DNA from: an uncultured Gemmata sp.
Lineage (GTDB): Bacteria; Planctomycetota; Planctomycetia; Gemmatales; Gemmataceae
Length of the DNA: 64,000 nucleotides
Reading direction: 5' to 3'
Assembly: GCA_937924775.1 (NCBI GenBank)
Contig: CALDUT010000009.1
Span: 62,001 to 126,000 of the forward strand
Position numbers and translations under genes: made by a program. Positions 410 to 39,226 of the stretch are shown here, piece by piece. Under the pieces are notes generated by a model. It searched no databases. It saw only the letters and a list, made by a program, of their open reading frames with translations, and had not been told where the DNA came from. How positions within the stretch are numbered: position 1 is the stretch's first letter; each line of letters opens with the position of its first letter.

Positions 410-1177
410 TCAAGAATTCGGTTTTACACTGCTGAGGTCGCGGAGAAAGCGGTGGAAGGCTTTCTCCGCCGTGCCGGTGATCGGTTCGAGCCCTGTCCGG
501 GCGACAGTGGGCAGTTCCACGAGGGTTTTCCGGGCTGGTTCGAGGGTTTGGTTCATCGGGTCGGGCCTCGCGGCCGGTTTGGTGAACGGGGCGGCCAGGA
601 CCTCGATGAGCTTCGGGGCGACCGTCACCGATTCGGCCAGTGGTTTGGGGGTTTCCCAGAGGCTTTCACTGGCTTTGGCCCACTGTTCGCTCAACCGCAC
701 CGGTTCGGGTGGTGTGGGCGGAGGAATCGCCGAAGCTGGCGGCCCCGGCGGCCCAGCTATCGGGGGTGGGGCGGATTGCTGAGCCACTTCCGCGTTATTG
801 GGGACAGCCGGTCCATGGAGGAAAACGCCCACGGCCCACAAAACAGCCGCCGCTAAGGCGAGGCTGCCGGCGGCGGTGGCCCACCGTAGCCGCAAGCGGG
901 CGCGGCGATCGGCGTTCACGCGCGCAAGGATTTGTTCCGTGAGGTACTTGGGGAAGGTCGTCGTTGCCCTGGGGCTGTCGGTCAGGGTGATGGTGAGCAG
1001 CTGAGCGGCCTGAATCCGTTCGCGGCACGCCGGGCAAGCCGGGAGATGGGGATCGTTATCTAACGTGGCCCAATTGGCTTCACCATCAAGAACACGTTGG
1101 AGCGTCTCGAGGGTGGCCCGGCATGCGGCCGCTGGCCCATCGAAACTGTTGTGGGGACAACGGTGTGCGTGCGCCAT
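410..1177 (-). CDS. Zinc-binding anti-sigma factor (zf-HC2/ZAS type), membrane anchored
   Basis: A 255-residue protein that should hold the neighbouring ECF sigma factor inactive at the membrane. Residues 44-51 show the ZAS motif HxxxCxxC (H44, C48, C51). A single hydrophobic segment follows at about 97-122, and a Pro-rich periplasmic tail (130-165) leads into an unrecognised C-terminal domain. The frame stays open far upstream into the sigma gene, but the ATG at 1175-1177 gives the normal ZAS start and a 14-base gap after the sigma stop, so I chose it. The sigma-then-anti-sigma order is the usual operon for this family. What signal releases the sigma factor cannot be read from the sequence. 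Confidence 0.85.
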   Translation of the reverse strand: MAHAHRCPHNSFDGPAAACRATLETLQRVLDGEANWATLDNDPHLPACPACRERIQAAQLLTITLTDSPRATTTFPKYLTEQILARVNADRRARLRLRWATAAGSLALAAAVLWAVGVFLHGPAVPNNAEVAQQSAPPPIAGPPGPPASAIPPPTPPEPVRLSEQWAKASESLWETPKPLAESVTVAPKLIEVLAAPFTKPAARPDPMNQTLEPARKTLVELPTVARTGLEPITGTAEKAFHRFLRDLSSVKPNS

Positions 1178-1749: not shown

Positions 1750-2068
1750 AATTCATCCTCACTATGCGGATATACTCTTTCCGCGGGGGTGGAGTTTCAA
1801 AAATACTTTTCGCCCGGCGGCCGGACTCCTTCGCTGCCGAAGTGCTTTTTCTTGGAAATTTCCGGCGGCCGGTTCCAGAACACGAGGAGGGTGGCCTTGT
1901 GGAGGTCCGTCATTTTCTCAAATTTCCGCTCCTTGGCTGGCTCTGCTGTTCAACCGCTGCCGGCGGTGGTCGCGATAGCCCATCGCCGGAGTGTACAATC
2001 GTTGAAGATATAGTCAAATGCGGGTGGCCGTGATTTTTTCGTGGCCGACGGGGTATAACAACACTCTG
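1750..2068. other. Divergent intergenic region between sigma factor and sigma-54 activator
   Basis: This 319-base stretch separates two divergently transcribed regulators and must hold both promoters. On the plus strand a -10-like TATAGT lies at 2009-2014 without a clear -35. If it is used, the first downstream ATG at 2018 would be too close to the transcription start, which favours the ATG at 2069 for the activator. I see no strong inverted repeat or gene here. Confidence 0.5.
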
Positions 2069-3709
2069 ATGAATACGGTTTCGGTGGATTCGGCGTTCTC
2101 GTCGCCCCCGGCGGGGTTGGTGCAATCGCCTGTGGGGGAGCGGGCCAACGTATTGTTGGCCGTGGCGCAGGCAGTGGCCGCGCACACCGATTTGGGTGCA
2201 TTGCTGCGGGATTTGGCCGCGGCCTTAGGCGACCATCTGCCGCCGGGCTATATCAGCTTCGCTCTGCTGGATGTCGCTTCTCACACCGGGAAGCTGCAGT
2301 TTCTCGAACCTTTGGGGGGAGCGGCTCCCCCCCATCGCGACGACACCCCCACGGAATTGCCCGCCCACGAATCTCCCACCGCCCACGTTTGGGAGACGCA
2401 AGAACCCCTGTGGCTTGATACCGCGTCTGGCAGCGATGGCCGTTTCCGCATTCTTCAGGCCGCGCATCTGAAGCAGGGGGTGAAGGTCGCGTGTTTCGTG
2501 CCGCTGTCCACCCCCCGGCGGAAGCTGGGAGCGATGGCCTTCGCCAGCTATCGACCCATTGTTCCGGCCCCTGGAGATGTCGATTTCGCCCTGCAAGTGG
2601 GCCGGTTGGTGGCGTTGGCCGTGGAAGGGGCCTTAACGCGGCAGGAATTGCAACGGGCCAACGAACGGCTTGCGGCCGAGAAACTGTACCTCGAGGAAGA
2701 AATCCGCACCGATCGGCGCAGCGATGAAGTCATTGGCCACAGTGCCGCGTTGCAGGAAGTTCTTCAGCAGATTGAAGTTGTGGCTCCCACCGATTCTGCC
2801 GTCCTCATCACCGGCGAGACGGGCACTGGCAAGGAGCTGATCGCCCGCGCCATCCACCGGCTCAGCCGCCGCCGCGATCGCACGTTCGTGAAACTGAATT
2901 GTGCTGCGATTCCCACCGGTTTATTGGAAAGCGAATTATTTGGTCACGAAAAAGGGGCTTTTACTGGGGCGGTGGAACGGCGTGTCGGCCGCTTTGAGCT
3001 GGCCGATGGCGGTACCTTATTTCTCGATGAAGTGGGGGATATACCCGCGGAACTGCAACCGAAGTTGTTACGGGTGTTGCAGGAGCAGGAGTTTGAACGG
3101 TTGGGCAATGCTAAAACCCTCCGGGTCAATGTGCGGCTCATTGCGGCCACGCATCGCAACTTGGCGAAGATGGTCCGCGAAGGCAAGTTCCGCGAAGACC
3201 TCTACTATCGGTTGCACGTCTTCCCGGTCCATCTGCCGCCACTGCGGGAGCGGCGTGAGGACATCCCCGAGTTAGTCCGGCATTTTGTCCGCTTCTATTC
3301 ACGCCGCTTCGGTAAGACGATCGACACCATTCCCGCGGCGGCGATGCAAGCCCTGGAGCAGTACCCGTGGCCGGGCAATGTACGCGAATTGCAGCATCTG
3401 ATCGAGCGAGCCGTGATCCTCTCGCGAGGTCCGGAACTGCGGGTGCCCCTGAGCGAGCTGGCAACTCCCCCCCGGGAATCATCGGGGCCAATACCGCCCC
3501 AAGTGGCCCTATCCTCCCCGCCAACGCTCAAAGATACCGAACGCGAACTGATCCGCCGGACGTTGGAAGAGTGCAATTGGGTGGTCGGCGGCGAACACGG
3601 AGCGGCCGCGCGGCTCGGTTTGAAGCGAACGACGTTGTTGTCGCGGATGAAGAAATTGGGCATTCATCGACCGGGGAATTCGAGTGTCGAAGATTCGTCA
3701 CCGACGTGA
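2069..3709 (+). CDS. Sigma-54-dependent transcriptional activator (GAF-AAA+-Fis)
   Basis: A bacterial enhancer-binding protein of 546 residues, which uses ATP to open promoters bound by sigma-54 polymerase. An N-terminal GAF-like sensor spans roughly 25-185, then a short coiled linker. The AAA+ domain (about 220-450) has Walker A GETGTGKE near 250, the sigma-54 contact loop GAFTGA near 297 and Walker B GGTLFLDEVGD near 320. A Fis-type helix-turn-helix lies at about 490-533. There is no receiver domain, so it is probably controlled by a ligand bound to GAF rather than by phosphorylation. An in-frame ATG at 2018 would add 17 residues; neither start has a good ribosome site. A sigma-54 promoter lies just downstream, making the next gene a likely target (inference). 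Confidence 0.94.
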   Translation: MNTVSVDSAFSSPPAGLVQSPVGERANVLLAVAQAVAAHTDLGALLRDLAAALGDHLPPGYISFALLDVASHTGKLQFLEPLGGAAPPHRDDTPTELPAHESPTAHVWETQEPLWLDTASGSDGRFRILQAAHLKQGVKVACFVPLSTPRRKLGAMAFASYRPIVPAPGDVDFALQVGRLVALAVEGALTRQELQRANERLAAEKLYLEEEIRTDRRSDEVIGHSAALQEVLQQIEVVAPTDSAVLITGETGTGKELIARAIHRLSRRRDRTFVKLNCAAIPTGLLESELFGHEKGAFTGAVERRVGRFELADGGTLFLDEVGDIPAELQPKLLRVLQEQEFERLGNAKTLRVNVRLIAATHRNLAKMVREGKFREDLYYRLHVFPVHLPPLRERREDIPELVRHFVRFYSRRFGKTIDTIPAAAMQALEQYPWPGNVRELQHLIERAVILSRGPELRVPLSELATPPRESSGPIPPQVALSSPPTLKDTERELIRRTLEECNWVVGGEHGAAARLGLKRTTLLSRMKKLGIHRPGNSSVEDSSPT

Positions 3710-3863
3710 CGGGCGCGACGAAATATCGTCACTTCGACCATGACATACCCACCCTCTCCACCAGTTCCGCCCCCGTCGCCGCGATAACAATGAGTGGGCG
3801 ATGAGGGGCATCTGGGCCGAGTGGATGGATTTCGCGTGGGAATTCGGTTTTCAGTTGGTGAAG

Positions 3864-3879
3864 TGGTACGCGACATGCA
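3864..3879 (+). promoter_or_regulatory. Predicted sigma-54 (-24/-12) promoter
   Basis: The sequence TGGTACGCGACATGCA matches the consensus TGGCACG-N4-TTGCA with two mismatches and keeps the required GG-N10-GC spacing. It sits between the sigma-54 activator and the DUF1559 gene, with an expected transcription start near 3890, about 45 bases before the ATG at 3935. The adjacency of activator and promoter adds weight. Confidence 0.7.
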
Positions 3880-3934
3880 CTTCCTCACGTCTAGCGTTTT
3901 TTCGTTGTGCATATCCTCGTGAGGTGAGGTTGTC

Positions 3935-4900
3935 ATGCCCGGTTGCTGTTCACGCGAGCCTCAGCGCGGTTTTACTCTGATCGAACTGCTGGTGGTGATC
4001 GCGATTATCGCGATTCTCATCGGCTTGCTGTTGCCGGCAGTGCAAAAAGTCCGCGAAGCCGCTGCGCGGCTGAAGTGCCAAAACAATCTCAAACAAATTG
4101 GCTTGGCCTTGCACAACTACGAGAACACCATGGGCTATTTCCCTCCGGGCGATGCCCCGCCGCACCGCGGATCTGCCTTGGTGTTACTGCTGCCTTACGC
4201 CGAGCAATTGGCCAAATACAACCAGTTCGACTTCACCCAGAACTTGCACACGGCCGCGGTGAACCTCGCGGGCCGGACCACTGATGTACCGTTGTTCCTG
4301 TGCCCCTCCGATCCCTCCACGGCTACCGTCAGCAATCAAGGTCGCAGCAATTATCTGGCGAACCTCGGCGCGCGAGGATGGTTCCGCAATACGGATCCGT
4401 CCACGGCCGGCATGTTTGCCTACTCGACCAGTGGCTTCATCGGGTTGAAGCACTCCGACATCACCGATGGCACCAGCAATACCGCGATGTTCGCGGAAGT
4501 GAAACGGGGGAATTTCGATGGGGTGGCCGATCCGTTGTCGGTCTATCGGATCCCCTTTGCAACGTGGGATCAAAACCAATTGGCCAATGATCTGAACCCG
4601 GTGCCGATCTGTGATACACAGACTTCCACCTTCTTGGATTACACCGGGCTGCAATATCATCGCGGCTTTTTGATCACGGCCTTCTACACCCACACCGCTC
4701 CGCCGAACTACCGCGGCCGCGATTGCATCCGCGACGTCGGTTTCGACCGCGGCCACGTTCAAGCCCGGAGCTACCACAGCGGCGGTGTCGGGGTGGTTCG
4801 GGCCGATGGCTCGGTCACGTTCGTTCGCGACACGATCGACATCAACCAGTGGCGGGCCTTCGGCACACGAGCCGGTGGCGAAGTTCTCAACATCAACTAA
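3935..4900 (+). CDS. DUF1559 pseudopilin-like exported protein
   Basis: A 321-residue member of the DUF1559 family, abundant in planctomycetes. The N-terminus is a type IV pilin/type II secretion pseudopilin signal: after a short basic leader, the prepilin peptidase site is G12/F13 in [11 protein letters not shown], with the conserved glutamate E17 (position 5 of the mature protein) and a hydrophobic helix to about residue 36. The SBP_bac_10-like DUF1559 body follows, ending in the characteristic segment with [14 protein letters not shown] near residue 285. A good ribosome site (GTGAGG) precedes the ATG. It probably assembles or is displayed in the envelope, but the precise role of these proteins is not known. 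Expression is likely sigma-54 dependent. Confidence 0.96.
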
Positions 4901-5622: not shown

Positions 5623-7074
5623 TCATTTCAGTTCGACCGGTTCGCTGATACGGCCAGTCCGGTCGAGAACGTAGACGCGGACGCGCTCGCCTTCCGGCAC
5701 CGGGATGGCGGCAGCACCATCGGCGGTCAGACCGACCACCCGCGTTTTCCAGTCTGTGCCGGCGAGCGTTTGCACGACGACAAACCGCGCTCCGGCCGTC
5801 GCTTGCACCTGCAGAGTGGCACCAGCGCGGCGGAGGGTGGGGGCCGCCGGGGGGGCTTTCCCCTCGGCCAACCATGGTGTTTCCGGCACGAGGGCCGGTT
5901 CGGCATAGGTCTTTTGCAGTTCGTCGGCGATTCCGCCACTATTGCGGACCAAAGCTTTCATGCTGAAGTGAATGACCCCCGGCGGTTCGACCATCTGGCG
6001 TGTCAAGGCGATCTGATCGCGAATCTCCGTGGCTTTCCAGCCTTTTTCGGCACCGGTGACGCGGCTGGTGTACAGACCCGGCCACAGGTGCCGCTTTTGG
6101 GTATTCTGTTTGCGCCACCACTCCAACAACTTCGGGAAGCTCTGCTTTTCCTGTGCAATGGGCCAATACAACTGCGGCGTGTAATAGTCGCACCAGCCTT
6201 CGTTGAGCCACAGTTTGGCGTCGGCGTACAATTCCGCAAATTGGTCGAAGCCGGCAATGCCCTCGGGATGGCCCGGACGCCAGATACCGAAGGGGCTGAT
6301 ACCGACTTTCACCCACGGCTTGATTTTTTGGGTCTGAGTATACATTTGCTGAACGAAGGTATTGACGGCGTCGCGGCGCCAGTCGTCGCGGCTGAGGCGG
6401 CCACCGGCTTTCTGGTAGGCCTCCCAGGTATCGTCATCGGGAAATGGGATGATCTTTCCAGCCGCGTCCTTCTCTTTGTAGGGGTAGAAGTAATCGTCGA
6501 TGTGGATGCCGTCGATGTCGTAGCGGCTGACCACGTCGCGGATAACGGCGAGGCAGTGGGCCTGTACGTCCGGGTGGGTGGGGTTCATCCAATAGTGCGT
6601 GCCGTAGGGTTTGGCGATGTCGGGCCGGGTTTGAGTGATGTGATTTTTGGCAATCGGGGATTTGGCGCTGGAATGCCGGGCCCGGTAGGGGTTGAACCAC
6701 GCATGCAATTCCAAGCCGCGGCGGTGAGCTTCTTCCACGGCAAAAGCGAGCGGGTCGTAGCCGGGGGATTGCCCCATTGTGCCCGTGAGATATTCGCTCC
6801 ACGGTTCGAGTTTCGATTCGTACAACGCATCGGCCATGGGGCGAATTTGGAAAATGACCGCATTGAGCCGCAATTCCCCACAGCTATCGAGAATCGCCAC
6901 CAGTTCCTTCTTTTGCTGCTCGGCCGTCAGCCCAGGCCGACTGGGCCAGTCGATATTGGCCACGGAAGCGACCCAAACACCACGGAATTCGCGTTTCAGC
7001 GGCGGTGGATCGGCGGCTTCAGCCACCGGCATCAAGCTAACGACGGCAAAACCGGCCATCAGCCAGCGGATCAT
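5623..7074 (-). CDS. Secreted GHL10 / YngK-like glycoside-hydrolase-family protein
   Basis: A 483-residue protein with a signal peptide (MIRWLMAGFAVVSLMPVAEA, cleavage near 20) and an early GHL10 (PF02638) hallmark, REFRGVWVASVANIDWPS, at 28-45. The (beta/alpha)8-type domain extends to about residue 390 and contains ELHAWFNPYRAR and a DGIHIDDYFYPY segment rich in acidic residues. A short Ig-like tail follows. The ATG at 7072-7074 has a GAGG ribosome site seven bases upstream. YngK-type proteins are predicted cell-wall or glycan-active enzymes with few characterised members. Its position directly after the MurNAc etherase/kinase gene on the same strand suggests it acts on peptidoglycan-derived glycans, but that is inference. 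Confidence 0.92.
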   Translation of the reverse strand: MIRWLMAGFAVVSLMPVAEAADPPPLKREFRGVWVASVANIDWPSRPGLTAEQQKKELVAILDSCGELRLNAVIFQIRPMADALYESKLEPWSEYLTGTMGQSPGYDPLAFAVEEAHRRGLELHAWFNPYRARHSSAKSPIAKNHITQTRPDIAKPYGTHYWMNPTHPDVQAHCLAVIRDVVSRYDIDGIHIDDYFYPYKEKDAAGKIIPFPDDDTWEAYQKAGGRLSRDDWRRDAVNTFVQQMYTQTQKIKPWVKVGISPFGIWRPGHPEGIAGFDQFAELYADAKLWLNEGWCDYYTPQLYWPIAQEKQSFPKLLEWWRKQNTQKRHLWPGLYTSRVTGAEKGWKATEIRDQIALTRQMVEPPGVIHFSMKALVRNSGGIADELQKTYAEPALVPETPWLAEGKAPPAAPTLRRAGATLQVQATAGARFVVVQTLAGTDWKTRVVGLTADGAAAIPVPEGERVRVYVLDRTGRISEPVELK

Positions 7075-7201
7075 GGTGAACCTCGCAACAATCCGAGAGG
7101 AAATCTGTACGCCACCGGGGGAGGCTCCGCGGAATGCCCGAACCTTCTGGCCCAAGGTGTTTTCCGAGTGGCGGGAACCGCCGCAGGTTCATTTCATCGC
7201 C

Positions 7202-9082
7202 TTAAATCGTCACGGTGGCCTTTTCGAGGGCCAGTCGAACAGCACCTTCGGCCGGCTCGGTGACCAGCGTGATCGGGCAGGGGTTGATACCCTGGTGAGC
7301 GAGGGCGGTCAGGAAGCGTTCGCGGTAGCTGGGGCAGCCGATGATGAGCCCACCGGCCAAGGCCAGGGGAAAAACGTCGCCCAAGTTCAATTGACGCGCC
7401 GCGGCGATGGCGGTGGCGGCCAGTTCGGTCGCGGCGTCGTTGACAATCTGCGCTGTGGTAGGATCGCCCGCGTCGGCGATGGCAAGAATCGTGGGGGCCA
7501 GAGCGGCAATGGTTGCCCGATCGGCCCCGCGATAGACGAAGCCGACCAACTGTTGGGGCCGGGCGAAACCGAGGGCGGCGAGGAGGCGTTCGGTCAGCGG
7601 GGTGGTGGGGGATCGACCATCCGCAGCGCGGACCGCAGCGCGAAGTCCCGCCAAAGCGATGGCGTAGCCACTGCCTTCGTCACCTAACAGTGGCCCCCAA
7701 CCGCCAGAGCGGGCCGTGCGGCCATCCGCGGCGCGGGCATAGGCCATTGAGCCGGTCCCGGCAACGACGGCCACGCCCCACCCCCTGGGCGTGCCCGCTG
7801 CCAGGAGCAACGCCGCATCTTCAATCACCTCAACAGTTTCCGCCAATTTAACACGCTGCGCCCAGTCGCGAATAACCTGCTGATCGTCGGGTCGGCCGGC
7901 CCCGGCAAGCCCCAAGACGGCGGTTTGCACACACCGGCGAACTTTTCCTGCGGCGCTGAACGCCCGATCGATCGCTTCGTCCAGAGCTGCCAGAGCCGCC
8001 GGAGTGCCGACCACTTGCCGGTTCGACGGCCCCGATTCACCTCGGCCCACAACTTTCATGTGGCCGTCGCGAGTGCGGCTGGCCAGCAATGCCACCGTTT
8101 GCGTTCCGCCGCCGTCGATGCCCAAAAACAACTCTTCATGAGAGGCCGAACGATAGCTGTGGCCATTTCTGGAACAATGGCTGCCGTTTTTGCCGCTGAT
8201 CATCACCGCACTGCGGACGCGGCCATTGGCTTGCCGCAACCGCTCCCGTGCTTCCTCGGGTGAAACCCCGGCCAGATGCGATACCAACGCCGTTTTCAGT
8301 TCCCGATTGCACCGTTCTAACAGCAAATCTGCCGTGTGAACGTCCAACCCCGTGACTTCCCGGACGATCCGGTTGGTCCGATGCTGCAGCTTCTGATTGG
8401 TCGCCCGCAGATCGACCATCAAATTGCCAAACGTCTTCCCCAACTGCACCATCGCCCCGGTACTGAGCATGTTCAGCACCAGTTTGGTGGCGGTACCAGC
8501 CTTCAGGCGGGTGGAACCGCTCAACACCTCCGGCCCCACCACCGGCGTGATCGCAAGATCCACCCGGGCGGCGATGTCCGAATCTGGATTGCACGACAAA
8601 CCGATCGTGAACGCCCCGACCTGCCGGGCATAATCGACTGCGGCTAGCACATACGGTGTGCGGCCGCTGGTGGCAATGCCCACCAGTACGTCATTAGCCG
8701 TAAGTCCAATCGCCGAAAGATCTTGCACAGCGTATTCGGGGTGATCTTCGGCGCCCTCGACCGACCGCACCAAAGCGGTCGGCCCGCCGGCGATCAGCCC
8801 CACCACCATATCCGGCGGAGCATTGAACGTAGGTGGGCATTCGCTGGCATCCAAAACCCCTAAGCGGCCAGAAGTTCCCGCCCCGATGTAGATCAGCCGC
8901 CCGCCGTACCGCAGCCGGGCCGCAATCACTTCAATCGCCTGGGCGATCGCTTCGGCCTGCGACGCCACCGCTGGCACCACCCGGGCATCTTCCGCGGTCA
9001 TCAACTGCACGAATTGCAGCGGCGTCAGTTCGTCGAGGTTGGCCGACGCGGGATTGCGGGCTTCGGTCTGTAGGTGATCCAT
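7202..9082 (-). CDS. murQ: Fused MurNAc-6-phosphate etherase and BadF/BcrA-type sugar kinase
   Basis: A 626-residue two-enzyme polypeptide. Residues 1-300 are MurQ: a SIS domain with IYIGAGTSGRLGVLDASECP (65-84) and a second SIS block with GIATSGRTPYV. Candidate catalytic glutamates are E81 and one of E109/E112. MurQ splits MurNAc-6-phosphate into GlcNAc-6-phosphate and D-lactate. Residues 318-626 form an ASKHA kinase of the BadF/BadG/BcrA family, with the phosphate-1 loop GIDGGGTQT and VVAGTGSMA. This is the family of MurK/NagK kinases that phosphorylate MurNAc and GlcNAc at O6. A linker of about 18 residues joins them. The fusion would take free MurNAc to GlcNAc-6-phosphate without releasing the intermediate (inference). 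Start ATG is at 9080-9082; the ribosome site is weak. Confidence 0.94.
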   Translation of the reverse strand: MDHLQTEARNPASANLDELTPLQFVQLMTAEDARVVPAVASQAEAIAQAIEVIAARLRYGGRLIYIGAGTSGRLGVLDASECPPTFNAPPDMVVGLIAGGPTALVRSVEGAEDHPEYAVQDLSAIGLTANDVLVGIATSGRTPYVLAAVDYARQVGAFTIGLSCNPDSDIAARVDLAITPVVGPEVLSGSTRLKAGTATKLVLNMLSTGAMVQLGKTFGNLMVDLRATNQKLQHRTNRIVREVTGLDVHTADLLLERCNRELKTALVSHLAGVSPEEARERLRQANGRVRSAVMISGKNGSHCSRNGHSYRSASHEELFLGIDGGGTQTVALLASRTRDGHMKVVGRGESGPSNRQVVGTPAALAALDEAIDRAFSAAGKVRRCVQTAVLGLAGAGRPDDQQVIRDWAQRVKLAETVEVIEDAALLLAAGTPRGWGVAVVAGTGSMAYARAADGRTARSGGWGPLLGDEGSGYAIALAGLRAAVRAADGRSPTTPLTERLLAALGFARPQQLVGFVYRGADRATIAALAPTILAIADAGDPTTAQIVNDAATELAATAIAAARQLNLGDVFPLALAGGLIIGCPSYRERFLTALAHQGINPCPITLVTEPAEGAVRLALEKATVTI

Positions 9083-9395
9083 AACGCGACAACCCAACCG
9101 ACGGGATACCAGCGATGAACAAAATTCACGAAACGATCACAGGAAAAGCTTTATGCAACGAGCGTGCCGCCAACAGTTTCTCTCCCCATGGCACGTTATC
9201 AACTCGACTAACTCAACTCAATCTCTCATTCAACATCGTCCTAAAGGGAATATAGCTTGGAATCGCCGTGCCATCGGATGTCGGCGTAGATGACGATTTT
9301 TTGACACACTACTGTCGAATTATTGACGCGTCCCGACACGGGACATTCATCCCCTCAATCCCCCCCTTATGCCGTCGTCCCCTCACCCCTTGCCA
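9083..9395. other. Gap between symporter gene and murQ fusion
   Basis: About 313 bases without a gene, fairly AT-rich on its left side. A weak inverted repeat, CGTGCC (9163-9168) with GGCACG (9190-9195), could be part of a leader or terminator. The length suggests that the murQ fusion has its own promoter here, but I cannot point to convincing -35/-10 boxes. Confidence 0.4.
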
Positions 9396-10904
9396 TCACC
9401 CCCCGCGGGTGCCGCGGTTGGCCAACAATGCTGCGGTCACTGTGGTCGCGGTGCCAATCAATGCGAACCATGGCCACGCCACCACCGGTTGCCGCAAGAC
9501 CGACGGCATAGCGTCCCAAGCGGCGAATATCCCGGTGGAAGGCAGCCACACCACAACGACTACCCCCAAGCCGCACACCAAGCCCACCAGCGCCGCGGAC
9601 GACGACACCGGCCTCGGCAACCGCCCCAGCGTGAATAACCCCAATATCAGCCCAGTGGTCAGCCCGGCAACGCTCAGCACCATCTCGATGACGCTCCGCT
9701 GCATTGCCACCGCCGCGACCAACGCCACGCCCAGTTGGGCACAACCAAACATAATGGTTAACCCCCGCGAAACCCACAGGTAGTGTCGTTCGTCCCCTTT
9801 CGGGTACAACGGGCGGTAGAAATCGTTCACCACCGCCCCCGCGGAGCTATTCAGAGAAGACGACAGGGTGGACATCGCCGCCGAAAGCACCGCGGCCATC
9901 AATAATCCGACGACACCCGCTGGCAGCCGGTGAACAATGAAGTAACCGAACACCGCATCACCTTTGATCCCCTCGGGCAAAGCGAGCGAACCCTGTTGCC
10001 AGATCACATACAGCCCCAGCCCGATCAGCAGAAACAGCAAAAATTGCAAGAAGACGACAAACCCGCTGCCAATCAAAGCTGCCCGGGCCACCCCCAGCGA
10101 GCGGGCACAGAGGAACCGCTGCACCATGAGTTGATCGGCCCCGTGGCTGGCCATGGTGAAAAAGGCTCCGCCAATCAGGCCTGACCAAAAAGTGTACACC
10201 CGCGTCGGATCGGTGCTGAAATCGAAGAGAGTGAATTTCCCTGCAGCGCTGGCGGTGGCCACAAAACCCGACCAACCATTCTGCACATCCAGCGCGATGA
10301 AGACCGCGGCCAGTGCCGCCCCCAGCATGTAGACCGCAAACTGAATGACGTCCGTCCAAATGACCGCCTCCATGCCGCCCAAACAGGTGTATAGAATCGT
10401 GGCCGCCCCCATCACGGCAATCGAAACAGTAATGTTCCAACCCGTGAACTGGTTGAGCAGAAGGGCTGTCAGGAACAGCCGCATTCCGTCGGCGATGGTG
10501 CGGGTGATGACGAAAATCCCGGACGCGGTCCGCTGCACCCGAGTATCAAAACGCTGCCGCAGCAATTGATACGCCGTCAAGAGTTCGCCATGGAAGTATT
10601 GGGGTAAGAGTAACCACGCGACGAGGCCCCGGCCCACGATGTAACCAAGCGCCAGTTGCAAAAATGTCAGATTTCCTCCGTTGGGGTTGAACCCCAACCC
10701 GGGGACACTCAGAAAGGTCACGGTGCTGGTTTCTGTGGCGACCACAGAAATCAGCACCAACCATAAGCCGACGCTCCGCCCGCCGACGAAGTATCGCTGC
10801 GTGTCACGCTGCCGCCGAGCGAACCACGCCCCCAGCAAGATTGTGGCGAGGAGATATACCGCCACCACCGCGACATCCACCACCGGTAACCGCGCCCCAA
10901 GCAT
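9396..10904 (-). CDS. Sodium/solute symporter (SSS family) permease
   Basis: A 502-residue polytopic membrane protein of the SSF family (PF00474), with about 13 hydrophobic segments. Family marks include the YFVGGRSVGLW segment after helix 1, SVVATETSTVTFLSVPG in helix 2, and the conserved SAAMSTLSSSLNS block near 340-352. It takes up a small solute with Na+. The substrate is not readable from sequence, but it starts 56 bases after the NamZ gene and lies upstream of the MurNAc etherase/kinase fusion on the same strand. MurNAc, or the MurNAc-GlcNAc disaccharide, is therefore the most likely cargo. From memory, the Tannerella MurNAc transporter encoded beside murK/murQ is a comparable case. Confidence 0.92.
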   Translation of the reverse strand: MLGARLPVVDVAVVAVYLLATILLGAWFARRQRDTQRYFVGGRSVGLWLVLISVVATETSTVTFLSVPGLGFNPNGGNLTFLQLALGYIVGRGLVAWLLLPQYFHGELLTAYQLLRQRFDTRVQRTASGIFVITRTIADGMRLFLTALLLNQFTGWNITVSIAVMGAATILYTCLGGMEAVIWTDVIQFAVYMLGAALAAVFIALDVQNGWSGFVATASAAGKFTLFDFSTDPTRVYTFWSGLIGGAFFTMASHGADQLMVQRFLCARSLGVARAALIGSGFVVFLQFLLFLLIGLGLYVIWQQGSLALPEGIKGDAVFGYFIVHRLPAGVVGLLMAAVLSAAMSTLSSSLNSSAGAVVNDFYRPLYPKGDERHYLWVSRGLTIMFGCAQLGVALVAAVAMQRSVIEMVLSVAGLTTGLILGLFTLGRLPRPVSSSAALVGLVCGLGVVVVVWLPSTGIFAAWDAMPSVLRQPVVAWPWFALIGTATTVTAALLANRGTRGG

Positions 10905-10960: not shown

Positions 10961-12127
10961 TCAGGAATAGAGCCAGTAGGAGCGGCGGCGGGCGGCAAAC
11001 GCGGTTTCTTCCGCCTCCCATGCGGCGGCGAGGGTTCGCCATGGTGTGCCGGCTTCGAGGGCCCGGCGTTCCCGGTCGCTGCCAAAGAGCAGATCCATCG
11101 CGAGCCGGTCGGTCACGAATTCATATTCTTCCGTCCGCCAAGCAAAACGGGAGCCACACAGTTCGCGCAAGTGGGCCAGAACCGCCAGACCGGTCCGCAC
11201 CGGGAGGAAAGCTCGCCGATCGGTGACATGCAACTGCACGCCGCCGCAATCCAGTCCGGCGAATTTGTGGAACGTGGGGCGGAACCACGCCGGCCGGAAC
11301 CGCACCCCGGGAAGCTGTTCCGCTTCCAGTCGCCGGGCCAATTCACGCGGTTCGATGCCCGGGGCCCCGCACAGTTCGAAGGGTCGCGTCGTGCCGCGGC
11401 CTTCCGAGAGATTTGTTCCTTCCAACAAACACATCCCCGGATAGACCAGCGCGGTATCGAGGGTAGGCATGTTGGGTGATGGCAGCACCCACGGCAACCC
11501 GGTTTCGTCGAAATACCAATCGCGTCGCCAGCCGTCGCAGCGGATCACTTCCAATGACACCGCCGGTACGCATTCGGCTTGGTAGAGGCGGGCCAGTTCG
11601 CCGATCGTCAAACCGTGCCGCGTGGTCAGCGGATGTGGCCCGACGAAGCTGGCGAAGGCCGGCTGCAACAGCGGCCCTTCCACCGCGATTCCGCCCAAAG
11701 GATTGGGCCGATCGAGGACCACCACGCGGACACCGTGTTCGGCACACGCCTGCAGGCAATACAGCAAGGTGGCGTGGAAGGTGTAGTAACGGCTGCCGAT
11801 GTCTTGCAGATCGACGACCAGGGTATCAAGGCCACGCAGTTGTTCGACGGAGGGTCGCAGGGATTCGACCGATGAACCATAAAGACTGTGAACACGCACC
11901 GTTTCCCGGTGAGAATCGCTCACCGGAATGAGGTCTTGGGCAGTGCCGGCCCAGCCATGTTCAGGCCCCAAAAGTGCCACCAGCGTGACCCCGGGAGCCT
12001 GGGCCAACAAATCCGCGGCGTGGGCAAGGTGAGAATCGACCGAGGCCGGATGACAGACCAAACCCACCCGCTGCCCGCGGAGAGCCTGAAAAGCCGAATC
12101 GCGGAGAACATCCAGACCGCTTCGCAT
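10961..12127 (-). CDS. namZ: DUF1343 / NamZ-type exo-beta-N-acetylmuramidase
   Basis: A 388-residue full-length DUF1343 (YbbC, GH171) protein. Conserved blocks are visible: LCHPASVD-type N-terminal Rossmann-like strand, LLGPEHGWAG, VVDLQDIGSRYYTF near 105-118, DRPNPLGG, PSPNMPTLDTALVYPG and the GRGTTRPFE segment. NamZ removes MurNAc from the non-reducing end of peptidoglycan fragments. No signal peptide is visible (the protein opens MRSGLDVLRDS) and the frame cannot be extended to add one, whereas the Bacillus enzyme is exported. If cytoplasmic, it would cut an imported MurNAc-GlcNAc disaccharide. It probably forms an operon with the symporter 56 bases downstream. Confidence 0.9.
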   Translation of the reverse strand: MRSGLDVLRDSAFQALRGQRVGLVCHPASVDSHLAHAADLLAQAPGVTLVALLGPEHGWAGTAQDLIPVSDSHRETVRVHSLYGSSVESLRPSVEQLRGLDTLVVDLQDIGSRYYTFHATLLYCLQACAEHGVRVVVLDRPNPLGGIAVEGPLLQPAFASFVGPHPLTTRHGLTIGELARLYQAECVPAVSLEVIRCDGWRRDWYFDETGLPWVLPSPNMPTLDTALVYPGMCLLEGTNLSEGRGTTRPFELCGAPGIEPRELARRLEAEQLPGVRFRPAWFRPTFHKFAGLDCGGVQLHVTDRRAFLPVRTGLAVLAHLRELCGSRFAWRTEEYEFVTDRLAMDLLFGSDRERRALEAGTPWRTLAAAWEAEETAFAARRRSYWLYS

Positions 12128-12229: not shown

Positions 12230-13201
12230 TCAGGTTGGCGGGGACGTGGATGGCTGATGGAAAGACCGATTCCGTGGGGGTCGCGTTATCATTTGCGCGT
12301 AACCGGTGTAGCCAGCGTAGCGGTCGCGGTCATGCGGATCACGGCGGCGGGCGAGTTTCCGCAGGATGTCCCGAATGCGTGGAGGTAGTCGCACGCCACC
12401 GTGACGCGTGAGGATGGCCCCGGTGATCTCAGGTTCTTCGTCCCGATGGTAAACACGCCAGCCTTTATAAGGGTGAAGCTGATAGCCGAATTCGTGTAAG
12501 ATGGCTCGCACCCGAGCCTCGAAGCCCGCCGGTGGAGCCGCGGCTACCGGCCACGAGAACGCCAGATCGTCGCAATAGCGGCTATAGCGAGCCCCAGCGA
12601 GCGCGGCGAGGTTAGCCAAGCGTATGTCCAGATCGCGATTGACACAGTTGCTCAGCGCGGGACTGGTCGGTGCCCCCTGGGGCAAGCCATCGCGATCGGT
12701 GGTGAGAATTGTCAACACGCGGGCGGTCTCATCATCCACACGCTCGCGCCACCATTGTTCCACGCGGAAAGCGTGGGTGCTGGGGAAGAAATCCTGAATA
12801 TCAGCTAGAACGATAATTTCCGCGCCGGCGTGAGTCCAGACGTGATCGGCTGTGGAATGCCCGGCCTGATAGGCCATCGCTGCCGGATGAGCTTGCTCAC
12901 CGCTCAGGTAGCGGCGAACAATCTCGTGCTGAAGTTTCTTGAGTTTGGCATCGGGTTCGGCGATTGCGCGGCGGCCGCCAGCGCGTTTGGCCCGGTAAAA
13001 TCGCCGGTAGCGGAAGTGCGGTTCCAGAGTTCCCGTAGTGAGGATGTCGCGGAAGACCTGGGGTGGCAGTTGCAGTGTGGCCGCCACCTCGACGCTGAAG
13101 ACGTCCAACGGGGCCATGGTGGCCCCGGTTGGGTCAGGTTCATCGTTATCGCTGCGGCTTTGCAGCGTTCGGGCTAGCAATGCAAAAAGCGGCCACGCCA
13201 T
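12230..13201 (-). CDS. Retron-like reverse transcriptase
   Basis: A 323-residue RT with fingers, palm and a short thumb and no extra domain, the size of retron RTs. Motif A is VLADIQDFFPST (131-142) with D134 and D137; motif B is LPQGAPTSPALSN (173-185); the catalytic box is YSRYCDDLAFS, with YCDD at 209-212. The retron region Y motif (VTG) appears as ITG at 259-261, followed by RLPPRIRDILRKL. The region X motif NAxxH is changed to HVWTH (120-124), keeping the last His. The start ATG at 13199-13201 has a GGAAG ribosome site. The SPFH gene ends 37 bases upstream, so the two form an operon. There is no room for an msr-msd directly beside the RT gene. Diversity-generating or group II intron RT are less likely because maturase and VR/TR features are absent. 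Confidence 0.88.
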   Translation of the reverse strand: MAWPLFALLARTLQSRSDNDEPDPTGATMAPLDVFSVEVAATLQLPPQVFRDILTTGTLEPHFRYRRFYRAKRAGGRRAIAEPDAKLKKLQHEIVRRYLSGEQAHPAAMAYQAGHSTADHVWTHAGAEIIVLADIQDFFPSTHAFRVEQWWRERVDDETARVLTILTTDRDGLPQGAPTSPALSNCVNRDLDIRLANLAALAGARYSRYCDDLAFSWPVAAAPPAGFEARVRAILHEFGYQLHPYKGWRVYHRDEEPEITGAILTRHGGVRLPPRIRDILRKLARRRDPHDRDRYAGYTGYAQMITRPPRNRSFHQPSTSPPT

Positions 13202-13238: not shown

Positions 13239-13973
13239 TTACCCACTGCCGTTTTTCCGGAAAGCCAGCAGATCGGCCAAGTTGGGTAACAGCACGACGT
13301 TGCCCCCTTTACCAGCCAATGCCATCAGGGCATCGAGTTGCTGCATCCGGACAACTTCCGGGGATTCGGCCAAGATTTTGGCGGTATTCGCGCGCGCCCG
13401 AGCCGCCGCCACTTCGTGCCGCGCTTTGACCAACTCGGCCCGACCCGTGCGGTCCGCTTCCACTTCCAACATCAAGACCCGCTGCACTTCCCGCGGCAGG
13501 ATGACATCGCGCAAGCCGACGCGTGTCAATTCAACGCCATACCGTCGCGCCGGTTCCACCGCGAGTTGTAGCAATTCATGCCCCAACTCGGCGCGGCTTT
13601 CCAACAATTGATCCATCGTCTTGGCCGAGACGACATCGCGCAAAGCTAATTGCAGCTCCTGATGAAGCTGCTCCACATAGTTTTCCACCGCTTGGAATGC
13701 CAATGTCGGATCGGTGACGCGATATTGAGCGACCAAGGTGATGCGAACTTCGATCTTGTCGGCCGTCAGAAGCCCCTGCCCGGCGACGATGTGACTCATT
13801 TCCCGCAAGGAAACCTTCGCCACGTCCACAGGGGCCCAGCGGCTGAAACGGTAACGCCCCGGTTCCAGAACCTTTTCGAGCCGCCCGCCGCGGTACAACA
13901 GTCCGCGTTCGTACTGAAAGATGGTGATCTCTCGGCATAGGCCCAGCCAGCGTCGCTTCAGCGGGGTCATCAT
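13239..13973 (-). CDS. SPFH/Band 7 (slipin-like) protein
   Basis: A 244-residue SPFH-domain protein. The domain fills residues 15-180 (REITIFQYERGLLYRGG, KVLEPGRYRFSRW, LTADKIEVRITLVAQYRVTDP) and ends with a charged helix rich in Ala, Arg and Glu (165-205) typical of slipins. No N-terminal membrane helix is obvious, unlike most stomatins. Two adjacent ATGs (13971-13973 and 13968-13970) are possible starts, with a GAGAG ribosome site upstream. Slipins oligomerise at membranes. The gene precedes the reverse transcriptase by 37 bases and is preceded by 1.2 kb without genes. An SPFH partner is not among the retron effector types I know, so its role with the RT is open. Confidence 0.87.
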   Translation of the reverse strand: MMTPLKRRWLGLCREITIFQYERGLLYRGGRLEKVLEPGRYRFSRWAPVDVAKVSLREMSHIVAGQGLLTADKIEVRITLVAQYRVTDPTLAFQAVENYVEQLHQELQLALRDVVSAKTMDQLLESRAELGHELLQLAVEPARRYGVELTRVGLRDVILPREVQRVLMLEVEADRTGRAELVKARHEVAAARARANTAKILAESPEVVRMQQLDALMALAGKGGNVVLLPNLADLLAFRKNGSG

Positions 13974-14175
13974 GGCGATGGCTCTCGGTATGTTCGAGGG
14001 CCGTCCAACCCGGCGGTGGTGGCGCGGGAAACCAGGGGACGCCAGTTGACGCGCTCGTTGTTCGAACCGCGAACGCTGTCCGAACGCAGAACGCGGGTAT
14101 CCCCGACGTCGCAAGCCGGTGTCCGGCGTCGGCCCCGAAGGACCGAAAACTGCCGGGTTGAACGACTCTGACCAC

Positions 14176-14200
14176 GTTTGCCTTGCACCGCAAGGCAAAC
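14176..14200 (-). other. Perfect 11-bp hairpin in the SPFH-RT leader
   Basis: GTTTGCCTTGC (14176-14186) pairs perfectly with GCAAGGCAAAC (14190-14200) around a three-base loop. It is flanked by a CACTGAC/GTCAGTG pair (14202-14208 with 14252-14258) and by a CCGACG/CGTCGG stem (14103-14132 region) that encloses a second CCGG/CCGG stem. There is no U-run, so it is not a standard terminator. A structured non-coding RNA, possibly the msr-msd of the neighbouring RT, is one reading. Confidence 0.5.
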
Positions 14201-14540
14201 TCACTGACACCCAGTCTGCGGAACGCCAACTCGCACGCAAGCCGCGCCGCGGTCAGTGTCTGTTACTGTAAATGAGTTCGGATAACGGTACAAGGTTCGT
14301 AGAGACATGAACTTTTTTTCCCCAAACGCCCGAAAACACCTATGTCAGACATGGGAGCAAGGATGGCCACCACCTCTCGGATTCTCCCAGCCGTGATTGC
14401 TAAGGCCCATCGTGAGGGAGCCGTTCGAGAAGTTTGACCACGTTGAGGTCAGAGCACCCCCCACAGACAATTCTGCCGATACTGTCACAGTGGCCCAGCT
14501 CCTTCTCTCGGACTGTGCGGTGTGAACATCGACTTTTGTC

Positions 14541-38449: not shown

Positions 38450-39226
38450 ATGACGGTGGCGATTGTGATTCCGGCCCGGTGGGCGTCGTCCCGGTTACCG
38501 GGCAAACCGCTTTTGCGAGAAACCGGCAAATACCTGATCGAGCATGTGTACGAGCAAGCCGTGCAAGCGCGGTGCGCGTCCGAAGTTATTGTCGCCACAG
38601 ATGATGCGCGCATCGCCGAGGCCGTTCGGCAATTCGGTGGGCAGGCCCACATGACGCGAACCGACCACGCATCGGGCACCGATCGCGTCGCGGAAGTCGC
38701 CACACGCCTGACTGCCGACATCATCATCAACGTTCAAGGCGATGAACCCCAAATCGCCCCCTGCGCCATCGACCAATTAGCTGAATTGATGAACAATCCG
38801 GCCGCGGATATGGCGACTTTGGCTGTTCCCATCACAGATCCGGAAACGTATCTGAATCCGAATGTGGTGAAAGTGGTCTGCGATGACCGCGGCCGGGCTT
38901 TGTACTTTTCGCGCAGCCCCATTCCCATGGTTCGCGATGGTTCTCCGGATTTTACCGCTCAGCCGGCACGCTTTTTGCAGCATTTGGGCATCTATGCTTA
39001 TCGCCGAGCTTACTTGCTCCACCTCGCCGCCACCGCCCCCCATCCTCTCGAACAACTGGAAAAACTCGAACAACTCCGCGTATTAGGCACCGGCGGAACA
39101 ATTCGTGTCGGACAAGTGGCCCAAGCCCATCGTGGGGTCGATACGCCGGCCGACTATGCCGCGTTCGTTGCGTGGTACCGGCAACAGGGGCTACCAGGCA
39201 CGGCGGCTCAGCGCCGGGTTGCTTGA
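38450..39226 (+). CDS. kdsB: 3-deoxy-manno-octulosonate cytidylyltransferase
   Basis: A 258-residue CMP-KDO synthetase, activating KDO for addition to lipid A. Marks are [17 protein letters not shown] at the N-terminus, VATDDARI, the conserved THxSGTDR-type segment as [21 protein letters not shown] with the metal-binding residue, and [13 protein letters not shown]. The ATG at 38450 has GGAGG upstream; earlier in-frame starts lack homology. Its presence supports a Gram-negative type outer membrane. It is followed by pyrG on the same strand, which supplies CTP, the substrate of KdsB; this pairing is common in proteobacteria. Confidence 0.95.

Follow-up and report, generated by a model that had tools for sequence, protein, structure and literature searches.

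A conserved candidate sigma-54 switch ahead of one DUF1559 lineage in Gemmata and its relatives, with a probable link to murein-sugar genes

The window analysed here, a stretch of 64,000 nucleotides from an uncultured Gemmata sp. (GCA_937924775.1, contig CALDUT010000009.1, positions 62,001 to 126,000), very probably carries an enhancer-driven sigma-54 switch, consisting of an activator gene, two dyads, and a promoter, that controls an operon of a DUF1559 gene and a lipoprotein gene. What was observed directly, in the genomes compared, is that the DNA elements exist, are conserved, and occur together with the activator. In the mechanism that we propose, an oligomer of the activator would bind the dyad pair at its own gene's 3' end, its GAF domain would read a cytoplasmic signal, and its AAA+/GAFTGA domain would remodel the sigma-54 RNA polymerase waiting at positions 3864-3879, which would then start the DUF1559-lipoprotein operon. 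The same activator would probably fire a promoter at 9154-9169, and hence the genes for a MurQ-kinase fusion and a GHL10 hydrolase, and in some relatives it would also fire a further DUF1559 gene elsewhere. The binding, the open complex, the direction of control, and the operon structure are what the known biochemistry of this protein class would lead one to expect.

Genomes and features of the switch

The genome of the window is designated G000, the window lying on its contig C9; comparisons were made with a family set of 95 genomes and a class set of 397 genomes. The elements of the candidate switch and the genes on either side of it are as follows (a strand is given where the element has one).

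2018-3709, forward: sigma-54-dependent activator (bEBP) with the order GAF - AAA+ (GAFTGA) - HTH_8, from Pfam, a predicted fold, and 15 orthologues
3685-3700: enhancer-like dyad 1, TGTCGAAGATTCGTCA, within the activator's last codons, 11/12 dyad positions
3716-3731: enhancer-like dyad 2, CGACGAAATATCGTCA, 31 bp after dyad 1, 9/12 positions
3864-3879, forward: predicted sigma-54 promoter, -24/-12, TGGTACG-CGAC-ATGCA, from sequence reading, with a counterpart in 15/15 loci
3921-3929, forward: ribosome-binding-like GAGGTGAGG, from sequence reading
3935-4900, forward: DUF1559 (SBP_bac_10) protein with a prepilin N-terminus, PF07596 and PF07963
4992-5402, forward: small lipoprotein of 136 residues with a lipobox, of the kind found behind switch-linked DUF1559 genes

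The predicted promoter and its conservation

The site at 3864-3879 lies between the activator and DUF1559 reading frames, both on the forward strand. By direct reading, its GG occupies 3865-3866 and its GC 3877-3878, with a gap of exactly 10 bases, and two letters set it apart from TGGCACG-N4-TTGCA, a T for C in the -24 part and an A for T in the -12 part; a sequence-only reading of this DNA had reported TGGTACG-N4-ATGCA, with GG-N10-GC kept and two mismatches, and the letters stand exactly where it placed them.

Taken alone, the consensus match is at chance level. The exact 16-base pattern has a single match in the window and none in 100 shuffles, a count that has to be read with the pattern's derivation from the site itself in mind; the fair test, the consensus allowing at most two mismatches, gave 5 matches in the window where 7.9 were expected. 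The family form, TGGTAYGC-N4-TGCA, gave 26 matches in 19 same-genus genomes against 31 for the reversed control, and motif statistics were dropped as evidence, neither the family form nor the two-mismatch consensus being in excess over its control. Ten of the 26 matches lie directly behind the activators of the 10/10 same-genus genomes that bear one, G000 included. The looser TGGYAY-N6-TGCW has 66 matches in G000 against 43 for the reversed control, among which only 3864-3879 was noticed, by eye, close upstream of a DUF1559 gene. Another sigma-54-like sequence of the window, CGGCACGCTTTTTGCA at 38964-38979, lies within an ORF and was treated as chance.

What points beyond chance is the position of the site and its conservation, rather than the motif match. 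Close orthologues of the activator were found by tblastn in 15 of the 95 family genomes (own included; the others 56-89% identical), and at the class level the same 15 genomes, of 397, match at E <= 1e-40. The sensory region has matches in 17/95 family genomes at E <= 1e-8, the remaining two, in G088 and G041, belonging to distant relatives of the activator; among named records the nearest comes from a Gemmata MAG and is 89% identical (L126). A -24/-12 site with its GG and GC ten bases apart precedes the DUF1559 gene in 15/15 activator genomes, reading TGGTAYG in 13 loci, TGGCACA in G035, and GGGTACG in G092, and in every one of these loci 58-75 bases separate its first base from the first start codon ahead of the prepilin motif. 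When 12 loci were anchored on the site (three close relatives being left out of the 15, and loci within one genus being non-independent), pairwise identity over the 16 bases was 75% vs 28-29% in the flanks, so that the site stands out of unalignable DNA. No such site lies behind three more distant GAF activators of the family, those of G088, G092b, and G041.

Comparison thus makes a match at chance level look real. That it is a functionless resemblance, GG-N10-GC with two mismatches arising in a G+C-rich genome as the motif counts above would allow, is highly improbable and is contradicted by conservation, the site being kept at one place in 15/15 loci amid flanks of near-random identity and dyad pairs accompanying it in 15/15. 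The genome also encodes the sigma factor itself, with one PF04552 (rpoN) match of 206.5 bits in G000.

The activator

The sequence-only reading had also placed a GAFTGA-containing activator with a GAF-domain sensor beside the site, and both descriptions hold. The reading frame matches Sigma54_activat (PF00158) at 250.5 bits, with GAFTGA and the Walker A motif GETGTGKE visible in the translation, and ends in a Fis-type HTH_8 (PF02954, 29.5 bits vs a cut-off of 22); its conserved start is probably the ATG at 2069. The GAF identity of the N-terminus rests on the predicted fold because the Pfam GAF_2 match, 23.0 bits, falls under its cut-off of 28.6. This predicted fold (mean pLDDT 83.7, with two of five models below 60) resembles GAF domains, the best matches being 3k2n (E 1.5e-8), a domain of another sigma-54 regulator with no ligand in its title, and 5w10, a GAF domain with cAMP. 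Twelve regions of G000, the activator itself included, match the activator at E <= 0.001.

The orthologue in G035 (L328, 4920-7073 after reversal) has a tandem duplicated sensory region with two GAF-region matches. The upstream neighbour of the activator in the window is an ECF-type sigma factor (Sigma70 r2 + r4_2) at 1192-1749 on the reverse strand, after which comes an ORF at 410-1177 (reverse) with no Pfam match that may encode an anti-sigma factor; this pair adjoins the activator in G014 too and was not found beside it in the stretches examined of 12 other loci.

The dyads behind the activator gene

Two dyads like TGTCGAnnnnTCGACA lie at the 3' end of the activator gene, upstream of the promoter, in 15/15 loci. 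The best pairs reach sums of 19-24 out of 24 at a spacing of 29-31 bp in every locus, whereas shuffles average about 14 and in 0/500 per locus score as high as observed; for G000 the sum is 20/24, again reached by 0/500. The dyad was first spotted by eye and then scored, and the shuffles are a test of its strength, not of its discovery. The first dyad in G003 is a perfect palindrome, TGTCGAAATTTCGACA. The dyads keep their spacing, whereas the promoter follows the pair's first base at anything between 99 and 301 bases. The activator frame extends into the first dyad, whose spacer holds an in-frame stop in several orthologues. No dyad of at least 9/12 lies behind the activators of G088, G092b, and G041, which are without the DUF1559 switch. 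From position, conservation, and the habit of such proteins, we infer that the dyads are predicted binding sites of the activator.

Beyond the switch, the perfect dyad was rejected as a genome signature: it occurs in 8/15 activator genomes vs 15/80 without an activator in the family, and is not specific alone, the figures within the genus being 7/10 vs 0/9. None of the three perfect dyads of G000 is at the switch. Other dyads of G000 (93 matches with at most one mismatch vs 34 in the control) are not claimed as targets. Of 20 such regions checked, 16 passed the scan rule, and only C8:167341 and C14:10162 among these have even a score-6 site downstream; seven of 13 inspected sit inside an ORF. 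Two dyads common to G000 and G014 sit in stretches that are 80-84% identical and are perhaps ordinary conservation. A pair 30 bp apart at G000:C18:77730-77775 (L247) falls within an ORF, and no sigma-54 site of score at least 6 follows it.

Five of 80 loci with more distant activator homologues, mostly from Nitrospira and Acidobacteria, have a dyad scoring 11 or 12; two of these are the Gemmata and Gemmataceae records L126 and L127. A perfect dyad lies just upstream of an Acidobacteria homologue that is 47% identical (L185, 5846-5861), and 11/12 dyads lie around a homologue in Telmatospirillum (L201, 4442 and 7437). The binding sequence may therefore predate the switch of the planctomycetes.

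A real sigma-54 promoter could have another bEBP as its main driver, the adjacent GAF activator then serving other genes. Adjacency is no proof to the contrary, G000 has the 12 matching regions noted above, and 10/12 of the murQ promoters described below are without a dyad of at least 10/12 in the gap before them. The dyads, however, sit at the 3' end of the activator gene itself, the site is present in all 15 activator genomes, and the distant sites before extra DUF1559 genes track the activator, and we regard another main driver as improbable.

The DUF1559 gene and its lipoprotein partner

The gene downstream of the promoter encodes a DUF1559 protein, with 159.9 bits for PF07596 (cut-off 23.3), 36.9 bits for PF07963 (N_methyl), and 19.1 bits for the H-X9-DG model (cut-off 19). 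Its small lipoprotein partner matches no Pfam or NCBIfam family, and its predicted fold has no Foldseek match at E <= 0.001; the best Z from VIA-align was 3.1, its six rows including two type IV pilins (Z 2.8 and 2.5), and no family is claimed. The lipobox Cys is invariant in 11 aligned lipoprotein sequences. An HMM made from seven sequences finds the lipoprotein behind 13/15 promoter-proximal DUF1559 genes, the exceptions being those of G007 and G024, and has 0 matches within 700 bases behind the 39 other DUF1559 genes of G000. Counting second copies, 13 genomes have it behind a total of 16 DUF1559 genes, with one weak match among these.

In a tree of 64 DUF1559 proteins, most linked copies form lineages of their own, deep nodes being weakly to moderately supported, and the switch-linked protein of G007 is placed elsewhere. 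One type of promoter-proximal DUF1559 is common to G000 and G012, while G014 has another (48% identity) despite an activator 89% identical to that of G000. The linked types thus differ behind a retained switch, which points to exchange or differential loss of the promoter-proximal gene.

The 54 PF07596 matches of G000 were reduced to 40 distinct pilin-type starts by excluding fragments and matches without a recognisable prepilin start. Within 350 bases before these starts, only the gene at 3935 has a score-7 site and a dyad of at least 10; L057 and L075 have a score-6 site without a dyad, six others reach a score of 5, and at L274 there is a dyad of 10 but no site. The suggestion that DUF1559 proteins can be under specific sigma-54 control is well supported for this gene, through footprinting across loci, dyads, rpoN, and the predicted GAF fold, and should not be extended to the class: a strong site with a dyad was found at one of the 40 G000 genes scanned, the switch as a general DUF1559 rule was rejected, and such control is the exception among DUF1559 genes. 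The site at L057 (G000:C10:429847), the sigma-54-like CGGCACGTCATTTGCC, lies 143 bases before the FTLIE codons of another DUF1559 gene and is possibly a target of another activator.

A further DUF1559 gene as a test of the regulon

A DUF1559 gene of G001, about 12 kb beyond the switch, carries two dyads 22 bp apart and TGGCATCGGACTTGCA. The expectation set beforehand was that relatives of this gene would carry the elements only where the activator exists. Homologues at E <= 1e-60 were found in eight genomes. In four of these genomes, all with the activator (G001, G002, G004, and G089), the gene has a -24/-12 site of score 6-7 and dyads; it lies about 15 kb from the activator in G002, about 385 kb in G004, and on another contig in G089; the G007 member of the set is the switch-linked gene itself. 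In G051 and G022, which are without the activator, the gene has neither dyads nor a site of score at least 6, and in G011, also without it, there is no such site and only a score-5 site and one 9/12 dyad, unsuitably placed.

The elements thus appear to track the activator as expected, although G001 and G002 are close relatives and G089 has weak dyads, 40 bp apart with 10 and 9 of 12 positions. The activator-free genes are 50-53% identical to the query vs 62-92% in activator genomes, and their absent sites may be partly a matter of distance. The extra subtype is sister (support 100/99) to the switch-linked DUF1559 of G007.

Murein-sugar genes and a second predicted promoter

Genes on the reverse strand face the DUF1559 operon, with a second promoter among them.

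5623-7155, reverse: GHL10 glycoside hydrolase, homologue of the solved Cwp19 (PF02638, 236.3 bits)
7202-9097, reverse: MurQ (MurNAc-6-P etherase) fused to a BadF-type MurNAc/GlcNAc kinase (TIGR00274, PDB 4s12, 8zo3)
9154-9169, reverse: second predicted sigma-54 promoter, CGGCACG-CTCG-TTGCA, upstream of murQ
9291-9306: enhancer-like dyad near the murQ promoter, TGACGATTTTTTGACA, 10/12 positions
9313-9328: enhancer-like dyad near the murQ promoter, TGTCGAATTATTGACG, 10/12 positions, 22 bp from the previous one
9396-10904, reverse: SSF sodium:solute symporter (PF00474, 146.8 bits)
10961-12127, reverse: NamZ exo-beta-N-acetylmuramidase (PF07075, 243.3 bits; PF20732, 189.5 bits)

The DUF1559 operon is convergent with the GHL10, MurQ-BadF kinase fusion, and SSF symporter genes in 13/14 loci examined, a comparison that leaves out G012 (a 4.4 kb contig) and has G092 as its exception, and namZ comes next in four loci (G000, G014, G010, and G003). 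The MurQ half is an etherase by TIGR00274, at 393.6 bits vs a cut-off of 302, and the C-terminal half of the fusion resembles a solved MurNAc/GlcNAc kinase; the fusion likely starts at the ATG at 9082. NamZ carries both of the Pfam domains by which it is assigned. The GHL10 protein matches Cwp19 (5oq2) at E 2.6e-83 and by this homology may act on peptidoglycan.

In G018 (L319, 11401-13252) two separate matches take the place of the MurQ-kinase fusion, owing to a frameshift or to there being two genes. Just upstream of namZ in the window lies a retron-type reverse transcriptase (12230-13201, reverse), which scores 158.9 bits with the retron St85 model, below its cut-off of 235; it is kept at 78% beside the HflK-like gene (13239-14210) in G014.

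Among the best 30 murQ loci, CGGCAYG-N4-TTGCW stands at -84 to -91 of murQ in 12/13 activator genomes and 0/17 others. The activator genome without it is G035, where only 29 bases separate SSF and murQ, and two of the 17 activator-free genes show one scoring 6 or 7 at another position (-65 in G047, -389 in G081). Over nine loci the site shows 84% identity vs 24-28% in its flanks. The contrast of 12/13 vs 0/17 is confounded by relatedness, the activator-free murQ genes being 42-64% identical vs 64-90% in activator genomes, and the missing sites may be partly a matter of distance.

We consider it likely, from these comparisons, that the activator also fires the murQ promoter and that the regulon is accordingly wider than the DUF1559 operon. 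Its weakest point is the scarcity of dyads in the murQ intergenic region, where only G000 and G014 have any of at least 10/12 (12/12 in the corresponding gap of G014), while G007 and G024 have single dyads farther up, within SSF. Control of murQ elsewhere would need dyads 5-8 kb away, the single dyads within SSF, or another activator.

The activator's targets might instead be the DUF1559-lipoprotein operon and further DUF1559 genes alone, with the murein genes its neighbours by synteny and served by another sigma-54 activator. Besides the scarcity of murQ-gap dyads, the -24 letters differ between the two promoters, TGGTAY before DUF1559 vs CGGCAY before murQ, and G012 and G092 keep the switch although a genome search found only the kinase half of the fusion in them at E <= 1e-50 and no MurQ-half match. 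Against this narrower regulon stand the distribution of the murQ site by activator and the convergent synteny of 13/14 loci; we think it rather unlikely, and give it the weight that we do because G012 and G092 are without the MurQ half and because the activator-free comparison genes are more distant.

Relation to known systems

The activator is like FhlA-type GAF bEBPs in its order of GAF, AAA+, and Fis-type HTH. Its best NCBIfam match is PRK15429 (formate hydrogenlyase activator), at 492.8 bits and below the cut-off of 830, so it is no FhlA equivalog. The FhlA binding site is a sequence other than this dyad, and, in contrast to FhlA systems, no hydrogenase genes are among the neighbours identified here, and the dyad is the one given above.

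The protein shares its prepilin N-terminus, PF07596 domain, and H-X9-DG end with the DUF1559/PF07596 family, whereas a dedicated activator, a sigma-54 promoter, and the lipoprotein set its lineage apart from the 39 other pilin-type copies of G000. We take COG2165 to be the pseudopilin group. Passages of a 2025 survey (PMC12316311) predict sigma-54 promoters near bEBPs in Planctomycetia and report a lesser sigma-54 enrichment there for COG2165, treated as a T2SS component. Its main text has 0 occurrences of DUF1559, Gemmata, or pseudopilin, and the regulons in its passages are without the dyads, lipoprotein, and MurNAc link of the present switch. In passages of PMC10632474, DUF1559 is the largest paralogue group of Planctopirus limnophila, with 68 copies of unknown function, two of them essential, and passages of PMC2754498 count 74 DUF1559 genes in Rhodopirellula baltica, called a solute-binding protein family from Pfam. 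The passages of these two papers tie no DUF1559 gene to a sigma-54 promoter and give no specific role for a DUF1559 lineage.

The enzyme families of MurNAc salvage (NamZ, MurK, MurQ) occur here beside a transporter, and the locus differs from known MurNAc salvage in its predicted sigma-54 control and its coupling to a DUF1559 operon. The murQ repressor in E. coli is MurR. DigH is, we assume, related to GHL10. Passages of PMC12288456 describe DigH as an E. coli hydrolase of denuded glycans and do not mention GHL10. Passages of an older survey (PMC3162934) describe a broad association of sigma-54 with the bacterial exterior, peptidoglycan building blocks included. Titles and abstracts on NamZ/MurQ, on MurNAc with sigma54, and on Gemmata peptidoglycan, few of them from subscription papers, describe no sigma-54 regulon of MurNAc salvage. 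The pairing of a bEBP with a sigma-54 promoter is thus of a known kind, and what is new is the target set and its probable murein-sugar link.

What the switch may sense and serve

More speculatively, the GAF ligand could be a murein-sugar metabolite such as MurNAc or MurNAc-6-P, a suggestion that we put forward as possible and short of probable. The conserved neighbours argue for it, namely GHL10, the MurQ-kinase fusion, and SSF, with NamZ in four loci. A signal unrelated to murein (e.g. nucleotide or redox), governing a surface or division-stage programme that merely includes sugar recycling, is likewise a substantial possibility rather than an expectation: GAF ligands are very diverse, and of the best fold matches 3k2n names no ligand and 5w10 binds cAMP.

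More doubtful still is a joint reading in which this DUF1559 subset and the lipoprotein would form the surface arm of murein-sugar salvage or remodelling, sensed via GAF and co-expressed through sigma-54 with the MurNAc enzymes, the pair capturing, handling, or exporting material at the cell surface.

Conclusions

The comparison offers an example of a chance-level motif match rescued by conservation across genomes. It yields a conserved and testable candidate switch that links one lineage of the DUF1559 family to named murein-sugar enzymes and a specific lipoprotein, and with it a concrete handle in the form of a substrate for growth, a regulator, and a promoter, and it adds a predicted murein-salvage regulon to sigma-54 biology. 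If true, the surface-arm reading would give one DUF1559 lineage a specific role.
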